From: Thiothrix subterranea | GTDB taxonomy: Bacteria > Pseudomonadota > Gammaproteobacteria > Thiotrichales > Thiotrichaceae | DNA length: 64,000 bases | Assembly (NCBI RefSeq): GCF_016772315.1 | Contig: NZ_CP053482.1 | Coordinates: forward strand, 1,302,001 to 1,366,000 | Reading direction: 5' to 3' | Shown here: positions 17,080-20,820 of the stretch, piece by piece | How the letters are laid out: the number at the start of each line of letters is the position of its first letter | Numbering within the stretch: the first letter of the stretch is position 1 | Notes under the pieces: model-generated | What the model was told of the DNA's origin: nothing | The model's database searches: none | Seen by the model: only the letters and a program-made list of their open reading frames with translations | Translations under genes and position numbers: made by a program

Positions 17080-17682
17080 CTAAAATCCTATCAATTGCGT
17101 GCGCTCACGCAATTTGCTGGTTCGCGGAAAATGCGCACTCAGGAATTCCATCTGATCCGCGAGAATATTGCGCCCCTGTAAGAACACATATTCCGCATAC
17201 GTGGGCTGGAATGGCACAGCCAACAGCGGCATGTGCGCTTGTTCTGGGGTACGCCCACCTTTCCGGCTATTGCACGACTTACACGCGCTCACCACATTCG
17301 TCCAACGATCCGGGCCACCCAATACCAACGGGCGCACATGGTCACGGGATAAATCTTTTTCCTGAAAATGTTGCCCACAGTACAGGCAAATGTGGTTATC
17401 GCGCCGGAATAACAGCGGGTTGCTTAGCGGTGGCACGTAATGCTGATGCAATTGTTGTTTGCTGCCACGGGTAGCAATGATGGAATTCAGAATAATGCGG
17501 CTGCGTTGCCCGGTAACAGCGTTAATACCGCCCCGAACGGCGAGAATGGGAGTCCCGCAGGTGTAAGCCACTTGCTCAGCGTAATAAAGTTTGACTGCCG
17601 TTTGGAAATGAATCCATTCCAACGGCATCCCGCTAACGTCAGTGCGCAGGATTAGTTGGTTCAAGCTGATCATGTGCAGCAT
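17080..17682 (-). CDS. HNH endonuclease family protein
   Basis: The product is 200 residues. An N-terminal domain of about 90 residues (LRTDVSGMPLEWIHFQTAVK ... PILAVRGGINAV) precedes an HNH zinc finger nuclease module: CLYC, then SRDHVRPLVLGGPDRWTNVV and CKSCNSRKGG. The CxxC pairs bind structural zinc and DHV plus the downstream Asn and His form the active site. Many bacteria carry this standalone protein, often annotated as a restriction-like HNH endonuclease; its physiological role is unclear. A later start at MISLNQ (17673) is possible. No methyltransferase accompanies it. Confidence 0.78.
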   Translation of the reverse strand: MLHMISLNQLILRTDVSGMPLEWIHFQTAVKLYYAEQVAYTCGTPILAVRGGINAVTGQRSRIILNSIIATRGSKQQLHQHYVPPLSNPLLFRRDNHICLYCGQHFQEKDLSRDHVRPLVLGGPDRWTNVVSACKSCNSRKGGRTPEQAHMPLLAVPFQPTYAEYVFLQGRNILADQMEFLSAHFPRTSKLRERTQLIGF

Positions 17683-17754
17683 GATTGCAGATTTCTGACA
17701 TAAATCAAGTATTCATAATATTTTTCATGAAGTTGTCATCGCCCGCTGGAATCC

Positions 17755-17768
17755 TTGAGCCATGTCAA
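17755..17768. promoter_or_regulatory. Possible CRP/FNR-family box upstream of the first 31-residue gene
   Basis: TTGAGCCATGTCAA is a TTGA-N6-TCAA inverted repeat, eight of ten positions of the FNR consensus TTGAT-N4-ATCAA. It lies 69 bases before the first small membrane-protein gene. No strong -10 box is seen at the position expected for class II activation, so it is only suggestive; compare the perfect site at 21406-21419. Confidence 0.3.
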
Positions 17769-17837
17769 GTTTCAACATCCCAACTTCAGGCACACTGCAC
17801 GCATTGACACATTAACGCTACCCGAAAGGAGACCACC

Positions 17838-17933
17838 ATGTTTAGTTTTGATTATGGCTTGCCCGCAGCGATTGTAATTGCACTGATTCTGTTCTCATGG
17901 TTCAGCTTCTTTTCGGTGTTTTTTTCCGGCTGA
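17838..17933 (+). CDS. 31-residue single-helix membrane protein, copy 1
   Basis: The frame starts MFSFDYGLPAAIVIALILF and ends FFSVFFSG before TGA. AAGGAGA at 17826-17832 is a strong ribosome-binding site about six bases before the ATG. Residues 9-29 are uniformly hydrophobic with an aromatic FSWFSFF patch, a single membrane helix with a short polar N terminus carrying Asp5. A second gene of the same length and pattern follows 112 bases downstream. The shared pattern is MFS(F/W)D(Y/F)G(L/I)P...FSWFSF(F/L)SV.FF.G, about 55 percent identity by eye. That conservation of a whole reading frame argues both are translated. I do not recognise the family; size and topology recall small accessory subunits of membrane complexes. 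Confidence 0.7.
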   Translation: MFSFDYGLPAAIVIALILFSWFSFFSVFFSG

Positions 17934-17972
17934 ATGTAACGCCCTATTCTGCCAGTCCTGTTCGCTGTGATA

Positions 17973-17993
17973 CTTCCTGATCTTGTCAGGAAG
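17973..17993. other. Hairpin between the two 31-residue genes
   Basis: CTTCCTGA (17973-17980) and TCAGGAAG (17986-17993) form a perfect 8-bp stem with a 5-base loop, 40 bases after the first small gene. The following bases are GCGCTATTCC, not a clean T tract, so it could be a weak terminator or an mRNA-stabilising stem that gives the upstream gene a separate 3' end. Confidence 0.4.
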
Positions 17994-18045
17994 GCGCTAT
18001 TCCTTTATCCTCTTATGCATATAAGTATTTTAGAGGTATGTAGGT

Positions 18046-18141
18046 ATGTTTAGCTGGGATTTCGGCATTCCGATGTTGATCGTGGTGGGTTTGATTGCTT
18101 TTTCGTGGTTTAGCTTCCTCTCGGTCGCTTTTTTCGGTTAA
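18046..18141 (+). CDS. 31-residue single-helix membrane protein, copy 2
   Basis: The frame starts MFSWDFGIPMLIVVGLIAF and ends FLSVAFFG before TAA. Length, the Asp5 position, Gly7-Pro9 and the FSWFSF core match copy 1, so this is a tandem paralogue. The ribosome-binding site is weaker (TAGAGG at 18031-18036, or TAGG just before ATG). It is followed after 15 bases by a strong terminator shared with convergent rpoH. Divergence at silent positions as well as in the helix suggests an old duplication kept by selection. Function unknown. Confidence 0.7.
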   Translation: MFSWDFGIPMLIVVGLIAFSWFSFLSVAFFG

Positions 18142-18156
18142 GCATCGCGTTTTGTG

Positions 18157-18182
18157 AAAAAGGCCGCTAATGCGGCCTTTTT
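18157..18182. terminator. Bidirectional intrinsic terminator between the small membrane gene and rpoH
   Basis: AAAAAGGCCGC, loop TAAT and GCGGCCTTTTT form an 11-bp stem with A/T tracts on both flanks, so it can end transcription on either strand. It lies between the convergent small gene (ending 18141) and rpoH, whose stop begins at its edge. Confidence 0.85.
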
Positions 18183-19051
18183 TATGCGGGTTCCACCACG
18201 GCTAAGCGCAGCTTACTCACCGCCGCATTTTCCAATTGGCGAATCCGTTCCGCTGACACATTGTATTTATCCGCCAGCTCGTGCAGGGTTGCTTTTTCTT
18301 CAGCCAACCACCGGCTTGCCAAAATATCACGGCTACGGGTATCCAAATTAGCCAAAGCCGTTTGAAAACGCCCACGGGTATAAGTATCCCACTCTTCGGC
18401 TTCCAACATTTCTGCGGGGTCAGCCGCTTCTGCTACCAAATACTGGCTAGGGGAAAAATTGGTGGAATCGTCATCATCCTGATCAACGCTGAGATCAAAT
18501 GAGACATCGTGCGCACTCATGCGCTTTTCCATTTCCAATACTTCAGCAGTGGTCACGCCCAAATCGTCAGCCATCGACTGCGCCTCTGCATGATTCAACC
18601 AGCCCAAGCGCTTTTTGCTGCTACGCAAGTTGAAAAACAATTTGCGTTGCGCTTTAGTCGTCGCCACTTTAACGATTTTCCAGTTGCGCAAAATGAATTC
18701 GTGAATTTCGGCCCGAATCCAATGCACTGCAAACGAAATCAGGCGCACATTCATATCCGGGTCGAAACGCTTTACCGCTTTCATCAGGCCAACGTTGCCT
18801 TCTTGCACCAAATCACCCAGTGGCAAACCGTAACCGCTGTAACCACGCGCAACTTTCACCACAAAACGTAAATTGTGCAAAATGAGTTGCCGCGCGGCTT
18901 CCAAGTCACTCGCGTATTTAAGACGTTCGGCTAATTCACGTTCTTCTTGTACTTCCAACACCGGAATGGCGTGAATCGCGTGGATGTAACTTTCCAGATT
19001 CCCCACCGGAACTGGAAGTGTCTGCCCTTTGAGCATCATTGCGTTGGTCAT
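18182..19051 (-). CDS. rpoH: RNA polymerase heat-shock sigma factor RpoH (sigma-32)
   Basis: The product is 289 residues from the ATG at 19051, which has GAGGAG upstream; an ATG at 19066 overlaps that Shine-Dalgarno sequence. Region 2 ([39 protein letters not shown]) and region 4 ([30 protein letters not shown]) are intact. The diagnostic RpoH box QRKLFFNLR separates it from RpoD and RpoS. It directs transcription of chaperone and protease genes after heat shock. Its upstream region holds a perfect CIRCE operator 32 bases before the start, implying HrcA repression of the sigma-factor gene itself. Confidence 0.95.
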
Positions 19052-19083
19052 GCGTGATCTCCTCATTTACTTATTGCATTATC

Positions 19084-19110
19084 TTAGCACTCCCCACCTT
19101 AGAGTGCTAA
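19084..19110 (-). promoter_or_regulatory. CIRCE operator (HrcA binding site) upstream of rpoH
   Basis: TTAGCACTC at 19084-19092 and GAGTGCTAA at 19102-19110 form the canonical CIRCE inverted repeat with the exact nine-base spacer and no mismatch. HrcA bound here blocks transcription of heat-shock genes until it is titrated or unfolded by heat, usually for groESL or dnaK. Its position in the 5' region of rpoH means the sigma factor is a likely HrcA target; the divergent coiled-coil gene starts 101 bases away on the other side. Confidence 0.9.
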
Positions 19111-19211
19111 TAACCCATTTGGTTGCTGTTTTAATTTGATTCATACCACGTTATTTTTAACACATTATGCTTTATGATAGCGCATAAACAGATAAGCAGA
19201 ATATTATAACA

Positions 19212-20333
19212 ATGAATCGTGAAGAACAGACTCTTATCGAGCAAAAAGAAACCCTTATTCAGGAGCGCGACCAAATCATCCGCGCGTTAGAACAGCGTTC
19301 TCGCGAGATTGAGCAACTGGCCAGCCAGAAAGAAAAGTACATTCTCGAACGCGAAGACCAGATTAACATTCGCAACCGCCGCCTCGAAGAAAAAGACAAT
19401 CACATTGGCAAACGCGACCGTGAAATCGAAAATCGCGACAAACAAATCAGCAAACGCGACACCAGCGTTCAAGAACTCAGCCAACAACTCGAAGCCCTCA
19501 ACCGTTGGGTACGCGATCACCAACAGCGCATTTACACCCAAGAACAACTGCTCAGCGAACGCAATCGTCACCTTTCCGAACGTGATCGGCATATTCAAGA
19601 ACGTGACCAGCAAATCCTGCAACGTGATCGAAAACTACGCGATTTTGACCGACTGTTACAACGCCGTGATGACTTGATTTTCGAGAAAGACCAGCAAATT
19701 CACCAACGTGACAGTTTGGTTCGCCGCAAAGTTGATCAAATCAGCCAACGCAATGAGCAATTAGCCGAACAAACCCGCCTGTTGCACGAAAAAGACCGTA
19801 TTTCACAAGCACGTGAACAACAGCTACTGGAGCAAAATCAGCAAACGCTTGCCAAAGACCAGCACCTTGCCGTCCGCGATCAAACCATTAACGAACGCGA
19901 ACGCAGCCTGCAACGTCGCGATGCTCAGATTGCCGCGCAGTTTTTGCAACTTCAGGAACGCGATAAAGAAATTGCGCATTTCAACGCGCTCATGCTGGAA
20001 AAAGATCAGGTCATCCAACAATACCAACGCCAGCAACAACAGCTTGCGCAGCAACTCAGTGAACTCATCGAAAAGCAGCATGCCCAAGAAAACAACTTGT
20101 TACAACAACTCGCTGCGCTCACCGCCATGGTTAGCCAATCCCAAGAACACGCCCAACATCAGCAAGCATGGGAACACAAGTTAGAACAGCGTGACAAAGT
20201 ACTCAATCTCAAAGACACCATCATTGCGCAATTGAATCAGCAATTACTGCACAAAGAAAAAGCCCTGCAACAACGGGATGTGATGCTGCAAAAACTGGGG
20301 CAACAGTTGCGCATCTATAGCGCAACGGCCTAA
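19212..20333 (+). CDS. Long heptad-repeat coiled-coil protein
   Basis: The product is 373 residues, almost entirely Gln, Glu, Arg, Asp, Lys, Leu and Ile, with no signal peptide, no membrane segment and hardly any Gly or Pro. From residue 15 to about 270 a seven-residue unit recurs with a hydrophobic residue and an RD or KD pair, such as LSERDRHIQERDQQILQRDR. Two poorly conserved breaks occur near residues 85-105 and 265-320. This predicts a continuous alpha-helical coiled coil tens of nanometres long. No catalytic domain is visible and I do not recognise a family. It is divergent from rpoH across a CIRCE-containing gap. A cytoskeletal or scaffolding role is possible in a filamentous cell, but is speculation. 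Confidence 0.7.
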   Translation: MNREEQTLIEQKETLIQERDQIIRALEQRSREIEQLASQKEKYILEREDQINIRNRRLEEKDNHIGKRDREIENRDKQISKRDTSVQELSQQLEALNRWVRDHQQRIYTQEQLLSERNRHLSERDRHIQERDQQILQRDRKLRDFDRLLQRRDDLIFEKDQQIHQRDSLVRRKVDQISQRNEQLAEQTRLLHEKDRISQAREQQLLEQNQQTLAKDQHLAVRDQTINERERSLQRRDAQIAAQFLQLQERDKEIAHFNALMLEKDQVIQQYQRQQQQLAQQLSELIEKQHAQENNLLQQLAALTAMVSQSQEHAQHQQAWEHKLEQRDKVLNLKDTIIAQLNQQLLHKEKALQQRDVMLQKLGQQLRIYSATA

Positions 20334-20340
20334 GCAATAT

Positions 20341-20820
20341 TCAATCAGCGTGCGCGACTTGCACCACTTGCATCTCATTCAGAACGGCACGAAAATCCTG
20401 TTCCCACGCGCCTAATTGTGCAGCTAAAGCTTGATCCGCATCCAATAATGGCGCAAGTTCAGCAGGGTTCAACACCGAAAACAGCGTATCCTTACCTTTT
20501 GCATACACCGCCAACTTAAAGGGAAACAAGGGCACTAATTCCGGGTGTGTCTTGCTTAATTCTCGCACTTCTTCCAAGCGTCCAAAAAACACAATGTTAT
20601 AATTATCCGTGGTATAGCCCATGTCTTGTAAGCCACCGTCACATTTTTGGATATGCGCCACGGTGAAATTGTGTTTTTTCAAAACGTCTTGAACTTGCTC
20701 CAACGCAAGATCGAACGCCTGCGGGGAACGCACCGTCAACAATTTATCATTCGCCTGCGCCGGAAGCGCCAACAGCCCTGCCAGCAATACGCTACCTAAA
20801 CCGATAGTTAAACGTTTCAT
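20341..20820 (-). CDS. Exported DUF302-family protein (second of a pair)
   Basis: The product is 159 residues with an N-terminal signal peptide (about residues 1-23, ending LPAQA). The body resembles DUF302: a paired alpha/beta unit with AFDLALEQVQDVLKKHNFTV and a GFP-like segment replaced here by VPLFPFKLAVYAKG. The start overlaps the upstream DUF302 gene by ATGA, so the two are one translational unit. DUF302 proteins often sit near sulfur or redox genes, but their activity is not established. Confidence 0.7.
   Translation of the reverse strand: MKRLTIGLGSVLLAGLLALPAQANDKLLTVRSPQAFDLALEQVQDVLKKHNFTVAHIQKCDGGLQDMGYTTDNYNIVFFGRLEEVRELSKTHPELVPLFPFKLAVYAKGKDTLFSVLNPAELAPLLDADQALAAQLGAWEQDFRAVLNEMQVVQVAHAD

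Follow-up and report, generated by a model that had tools for sequence, protein, structure and literature searches.

Standard descriptions of the heat-shock response in Proteobacteria are based on Escherichia coli, in which mRNA structure, chaperones and proteolysis determine the level of RpoH (sigma-32). To our knowledge, HrcA is absent from E. coli, and E. coli was not among the control genomes matched by our hrcA search. In Bacillus subtilis, Chlamydia and Helicobacter, HrcA acts on groESL through the CIRCE operator under feedback from GroEL; according to the account in PMC6032397, which cites work in B. subtilis and Chlamydia, GroEL keeps HrcA active and its titration by unfolded protein relieves repression. 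The locus described here, from Thiothrix subterranea, shares with these systems the operator, the repressor family and groESL as a target. However, its CIRCE in front of rpoH lies on the −10 of a putative ECF-type promoter, and the predicted target is itself a heat-shock regulator.

A CIRCE in front of rpoH has a precedent in Geobacter sulfurreducens, where one was predicted computationally 51 bases before the gene (Rodionov et al. 2004; PMC545781, Table 8). As in T. subterranea, the Geobacter site matches the consensus and is accompanied by a site at groESL (PMC545781). In contrast, G. sulfurreducens also has CIRCE at hrcA-grpE-dnaK-dnaJ, whereas T. subterranea dnaK falls outside the predicted HrcA regulon. 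Moreover, G. sulfurreducens is a single deltaproteobacterium, for which the relevant part of that paper describes no fused promoter (PMC545781), whereas the arrangement reported here is widespread in Gammaproteobacteria. In the open-licence PMC literature, represented mostly by titles and the starts of abstracts, we found no report of CIRCE before rpoH of Gammaproteobacteria or of a fused promoter; the bare placement of CIRCE before rpoH may already be in print, likeliest in the survey of beta-, gamma- and epsilon-proteobacteria by Permina and Gelfand (2003).

The other close relative is the P3 promoter of E. coli rpoH, whose RpoE-dependent transcription led to the identification of RpoE, as summarized in a review (PMC8103513). 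In Vibrio alginolyticus, RpoE, for which GGAACTT and TCAAA are given as canonical motifs, is reported to bind the promoter of rpoH (PMC4890791). The rpoH upstream region of E. coli K-12 carries TGAACTT-N16-TCTGA, the same geometry as the gammaproteobacterial rpoH sites analysed below, and P3 thus resembles them in its GAACTT-N16-TCTGA layout and in having rpoH as target. It differs in being free of CIRCE (the best match at E. coli rpoH has 8 mismatches), whereas in T. subterranea the putative −10 lies inside the operator.

Predicted HrcA operators in T. subterranea

The window, that is, the whole stretch of 64,000 nucleotides analysed here, contains a perfect CIRCE of 27 bases, TTAGCACTC-CCCACCTTA-GAGTGCTAA, at 19084–19110, which agrees with the consensus TTAGCACTC-N9-GAGTGCTAA without a mismatch. 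It is the only match of the window at ≤3 mismatches, and none of 100 dinucleotide shuffles contained a CIRCE at that threshold; together with the counts of shuffled palindromes in class genomes given below, this rules out a chance palindrome. The gene downstream, on the minus strand at 18182–19051, is rpoH (TIGR02392, 396 bits; cut-off 323.1), and exactly 32 bases separate the palindrome from its ATG at 19051, confirming the original prediction in both the perfect match and the distance. The mechanical open reading frame begins at 19066, 15 bases before this ATG, and a Shine-Dalgarno sequence, GAGGAGA, can be read at 19058–19064 on the minus strand. The closest named RpoH is that of Thiothrix sp. 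UBA5583 (87%). An Rfam scan of 17400–20400 yielded two hits; neither reached the gathering score, and both lie close to the rpoH 3′ end or beyond it.

As repression at this site presupposes the repressor, and a genome lacking hrcA had been named as grounds for rejecting the idea, we searched the genome for the gene and found a single good one (218 bits; cut-off 22.2), which rules out its absence. It sits between nadK/recN-like and gnd-like genes, judging by open reading frames read by eye, outside any dnaK operon. The whole 4.08 Mb assembly contains exactly two CIRCEs at ≤3 mismatches, one before rpoH and one before groES; the latter is likewise perfect and represents the canonical groESL site. 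The rpoH of the window is the only gene of the genome above the RpoH family cut-off, and these searches rule out a second rpoH over the cut-off or a third CIRCE at ≤3 mismatches.

No CIRCE was found in 10 kb around hrcA at ≤6 mismatches or in 5 kb around grpE-dnaK at ≤5 mismatches, where the sole match with 6 mismatches lies beyond the end of dnaK; these CIRCE-free loci rule out CIRCE control of dnaK and autoregulation of hrcA through CIRCE in this genome. Between grpE and dnaK, we instead found a sigma-32-like promoter, CTTGAAA-N12-CCCCAC (CTTGAAAACGGGTAGTTAACCCCAC), which agrees with the sigma-32 consensus at 12 of 13 positions. As CIRCE occurs only at rpoH and groESL, and dnaK has a sigma-32-like promoter, HrcA would reach dnaK only through RpoH. 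The genome also encodes an RpoE ortholog (310 bits, cut-off 236), followed by open reading frames that on visual inspection look like rseA, mucB and a degP-like gene; RpoE orthologs exceeded the cut-off in 59 of the 63 genomes of the order, T. subterranea included.

Distribution of CIRCE in front of rpoH

The original prediction had proposed comparing rpoH upstream regions of related species. Among the 63 genomes of the order (Thiotrichales), 59 had an rpoH match and 4 had none; three of the 59 were dropped, their sequence ending before the upstream region. All 56 upstream regions examined contained CIRCE, 54 of them a perfect one and 2 one with a single mismatch.

At the level of the class, a draw of 369 gammaproteobacterial genomes gave an RpoH-profile match in 345, CIRCE at ≤1 mismatch in 269 and hrcA in 268. 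The site before rpoH was then scored in the 90 genomes with the best RpoH-profile scores of the 345, a sample from 57 families that is not random. Within 300 bases of rpoH and at ≤3 mismatches, CIRCE was present in 67 of the 75 hrcA-positive genomes versus 6 of the 15 without detected hrcA (Fisher p ~1e-4), genomes being called negative by eye when they did not appear among the listed hrcA positives. The 8 other hrcA-positive genomes lacked CIRCE at ≤300 bases from the RpoH match. Three of the six hrcA-negative genomes with a site are 97–99% complete (one site with 1 mismatch, two with 3), and the remaining three are 72–79% complete. For comparison, 178 shuffled palindromes matched on average 0.006 of the 90 class genomes, with a maximum of 1. 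The sites come from 48 of the 57 sampled families; they number 73 within 300 bases and 74 anywhere in the stretch, the latter being the set used for motif counts. One further genome of the class, G538, has as its single CIRCE at ≤1 mismatch, among the matches listed, one before rpoH (C6:209659-209685).

A set of 80 named loci, two of which were too short and left out, showed CIRCE before rpoH in 34 of 78, including Thioalkalivibrio, Alcanivorax, Halioglobus, Chromatiaceae, Competibacteraceae and a Kangiellaceae MAG. The 44 CIRCE-free loci were mostly from Pseudomonas, and also from Marinobacter, Colwellia and Aliivibrio. In a draw of 200 genomes from the phylum, with CIRCE and RpoH lists compared by eye among the matches listed, the site adjoined rpoH in 12 of 13 class genomes having both but in 1 of 40 genomes outside the class, and this one site was without the GAAC motif described below. 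On an RpoH tree, the CIRCE label required 9 changes over 109 rows versus 33.7 in shuffles; two loci bearing a site were scored as lacking it in the window used for the tree, and three loci were skipped. Site-free rows fell mainly into a few clades (Pseudomonas, an E. coli-Vibrio-Colwellia group, Marinobacter and Oceanospirillaceae), a pattern on this unrooted tree that fits loss of the site. Overall, the layout, which the original prediction set apart from the usual CIRCE at groESL or dnaK, is no exception: it is frequent in Gammaproteobacteria that have hrcA and had already been predicted in a deltaproteobacterium.

Promoter-like elements in register with the operator

With the class rpoH sites superimposed by their operators and oriented in the direction of rpoH, the commonest letters at −16 to −11 were GGAACT. 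GAAC at −16/−15 was present in 61 of the 74 sites versus 0 of 20 groE CIRCEs (p ~4e-12), and the third spacer base was A in 62 of 74 versus 0 of 20 (p ~2e-12). The groE controls comprised 19 sites from the class and T. subterranea's own, oriented by groES; those from the class were hand-picked among the matches listed, and one of 21 was dropped as groES was not seen. The commonest first spacer triplets at rpoH were TAA, TCA and TTA, so that the operator TC and the spacer A form TCTNA, 16 bases after GGAACTT. With one rpoH site per family, the counts were 36 of 48 for GAAC and 37 of 48 for the spacer A. The opposite end of the spacer, with A in 25 of 74 class sites, showed no such bias. In the order, 46 of 55 sites had AAC at −14 and 53 had the spacer A, one locus with a missing flank being left out.

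The groE CIRCEs had upstream features of their own, with TTGA in all 20 (CTTGA in 19) and TAT.R directly before CIRCE in 19. As the 20 groE CIRCEs lack both GAAC and the spacer A, and as sigma-E-like motifs also occur before CIRCE-free rpoH, we rejected the idea that these elements are parts of the HrcA operator itself. Among the named loci, G[AG]AAC[TA]-N15-18-TC..A preceded rpoH in 10 of the 44 without CIRCE (shuffle mean 0.08; none in the other 34) and in 17 of the 34 with CIRCE. These alignments indicate that the putative operator is fused, at rpoH and not at groE, with an ECF/sigma-E-type promoter sequence in fixed register.

In T. subterranea, this sequence reads GCAACCA-N16-TCTAA; of the pattern GGAACTT, 16–17 bases and TC..A, it preserves just the AAC core and the −10. 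GCAACCA occupies the −35 position (19120–19126, minus strand), the class GGAACTT being matched more weakly in the genus, and TCTAA (19099–19103, minus strand), made of the CIRCE TC and the first spacer bases TAA, lies 16 bases after it at the −10. The genus mostly has GCAACCA or GAAACCA instead of GGAACTT, and a rule requiring AAC plus TC found no site before T. subterranea's own rpoE or degP; these two observations make RpoE a tentative choice for the ECF factor that would read the motif.

A weaker, sigma-70-like pair may tentatively use both CIRCE arms as well. Its possible −35, TTAGCA in the left arm (19105–19110, minus strand), would become TTGGCA if its third base were changed from A to G, as it is in 27 of the 74 class sites. 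Its possible −10, TAAGAT (19081–19086, minus strand), consists of the right-arm end and flank, a hexamer that fits TA..[AC]T in 67 of the 74; the two lie 18 bases apart. The change falls at position 2 of the left arm, counted from 0, and the mirror position was changed in 0 of 74 (p ~8e-10). All 16 genus members have the AAC core, the spacer A and TA..[AC]T. A promoter consensus scan of the window gave nothing over threshold, and no sigma-70 promoter at rpoH. Mismatches in the arms of the class rpoH sites are also lopsided in general: position 2 was changed on the left only in 29 of 74, and position 6 on the right only in 8 and on the left only in 2.

Predicted control of rpoH and neighbouring genes

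The locus is best read as one where HrcA represses rpoH, the core of the original prediction, because CIRCE is found repeatedly ahead of rpoH in the class and overlies conserved promoter elements; with hrcA present in the genome, this reading is supported. We consider it probable that the palindrome is an HrcA operator of rpoH fused with an ECF/sigma-E-type promoter, and that HrcA would block this promoter until GroEL is titrated. In the proposed mechanism, free GroEL would keep HrcA active, and HrcA would sit on the rpoH core promoter, covering the ECF-type −10 and the start region and thereby holding down the sigma-factor gene, as it would groESL, its one other predicted target. With HrcA over the −10 and start region, rpoH would therefore need HrcA release. 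Unfolded protein would titrate GroEL and release HrcA, so that groESL and rpoH are transcribed, rpoH most strongly when sigma-E is active too, and RpoH would relay the signal to CIRCE-free genes such as dnaK. Transcription of rpoH would thus be under two controls: the envelope-stress signal carried by sigma-E and, added to it, a gate set by protein folding in the cytoplasm through GroEL and HrcA. In this scheme we infer HrcA binding, its dependence on GroEL, the sigma factor reading the motif and the start sites from sequence, and the cascade GroEL-HrcA-rpoH-dnaK is one predicted by the sites alone.

Three other explanations have to be weighed against repression by HrcA. The CIRCE palindrome can form an RNA hairpin and E. 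coli rpoH is known for leader control, both of which would favour a stem-loop in the rpoH leader that affects mRNA stability or translation and leaves little role for HrcA on DNA; three class sites in which both arms are changed with pairing kept would also fit. However, transcripts starting where the promoter motifs predict, within the palindrome or shortly beyond it (by our estimate near 19091–19093 for the ECF-type promoter and near 19074 for the sigma-70-type one), would lack one or both arms, changes in the arms of the 74 sites are one-sided in 58 cases versus two-sided in 4, and presence of the site goes with hrcA, which makes a mainly RNA-level role very improbable. We give even less credit to an operator acting on the coiled-coil gene that diverges at 19212, alone or together with rpoH. 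A related open reading frame was found in the divergent orientation at 13 of the 14 loci checked. However, of the 58 loci that combine the site with long flanks, 32 have ftsX as the gene upstream of rpoH and co-oriented with it, as does E. coli, and for this reason we assign the site to rpoH; moreover, the motifs at constant spacing from the operator point toward rpoH. The start of the divergent gene is 101 bases from the operator, and nothing we found points to the effect on it that had been suggested.

Strong post-transcriptional control of rpoH in E. coli would suit a third possibility, in which HrcA binds but other promoters dominate, the operator tuning a minor transcript while RpoH is set post-transcriptionally. 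The several promoters at E. coli rpoH, of which the review describes P3 (PMC8103513), would likewise suit it, as would a genus-conserved, unexplained block upstream of CIRCE. Transcript data from nitrogen-starved Xylella fastidiosa would also fit: in the time course reported in PMC3224663, hrcA is up four-fold at 2 h and rpoH two-fold at 8 and 12 h. A rise of both transcripts fits poorly with HrcA repressing rpoH and leans against it, its bearing depending on Xylella having the site. Against a minor role stands the retention of sites in 48 of 57 families, which would hardly be expected, and we regard this possibility as unlikely, if less so than the other two.

Extending repression by HrcA beyond T. 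subterranea, we somewhat favour the view that hrcA-bearing Gammaproteobacteria have a composite HrcA operator/sigma-E promoter at rpoH, full firing of which would need both envelope stress and loss of free GroEL, and that the layouts of E. coli, Vibrio and Pseudomonas are remnants after loss of HrcA and CIRCE. If HrcA gates rpoH in most of these bacteria, the GroEL-titration signal would reach the whole sigma-32 regulon via rpoH transcription, and the two classical heat-shock strategies would be one circuit.

Several further features surround the locus. The divergent gene (19212–20333, plus strand) encodes a Gln/Glu/Arg-rich repeat, coiled-coil-like protein with no NCBIfam match. Among the 13 related open reading frames, 11 are 61–100% identical to it and two 35–38%, for which low complexity could explain the match; the fourteenth locus has none. 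The conserved block, resembling GTGTTAAAAATAACGTGGTATGAA in minus-strand sense, lies at 19140–19163, 30–53 bases upstream of CIRCE, and recurs as a loose pattern in 13 of 16 genus members; it is perhaps a divergent promoter. In a small protein encoded at 17080–17682 on the minus strand, one segment is related to the HNH portion of IscB and Cas9d, at scores well under their cut-offs. Just beyond rpoH, at 17838–17933 and 18046–18141 on the plus strand, two tandem open reading frames, the first preceded by AAGGAG, encode similar hydrophobic peptides of 31 residues, each with FSWFSF, which are possibly small membrane proteins.
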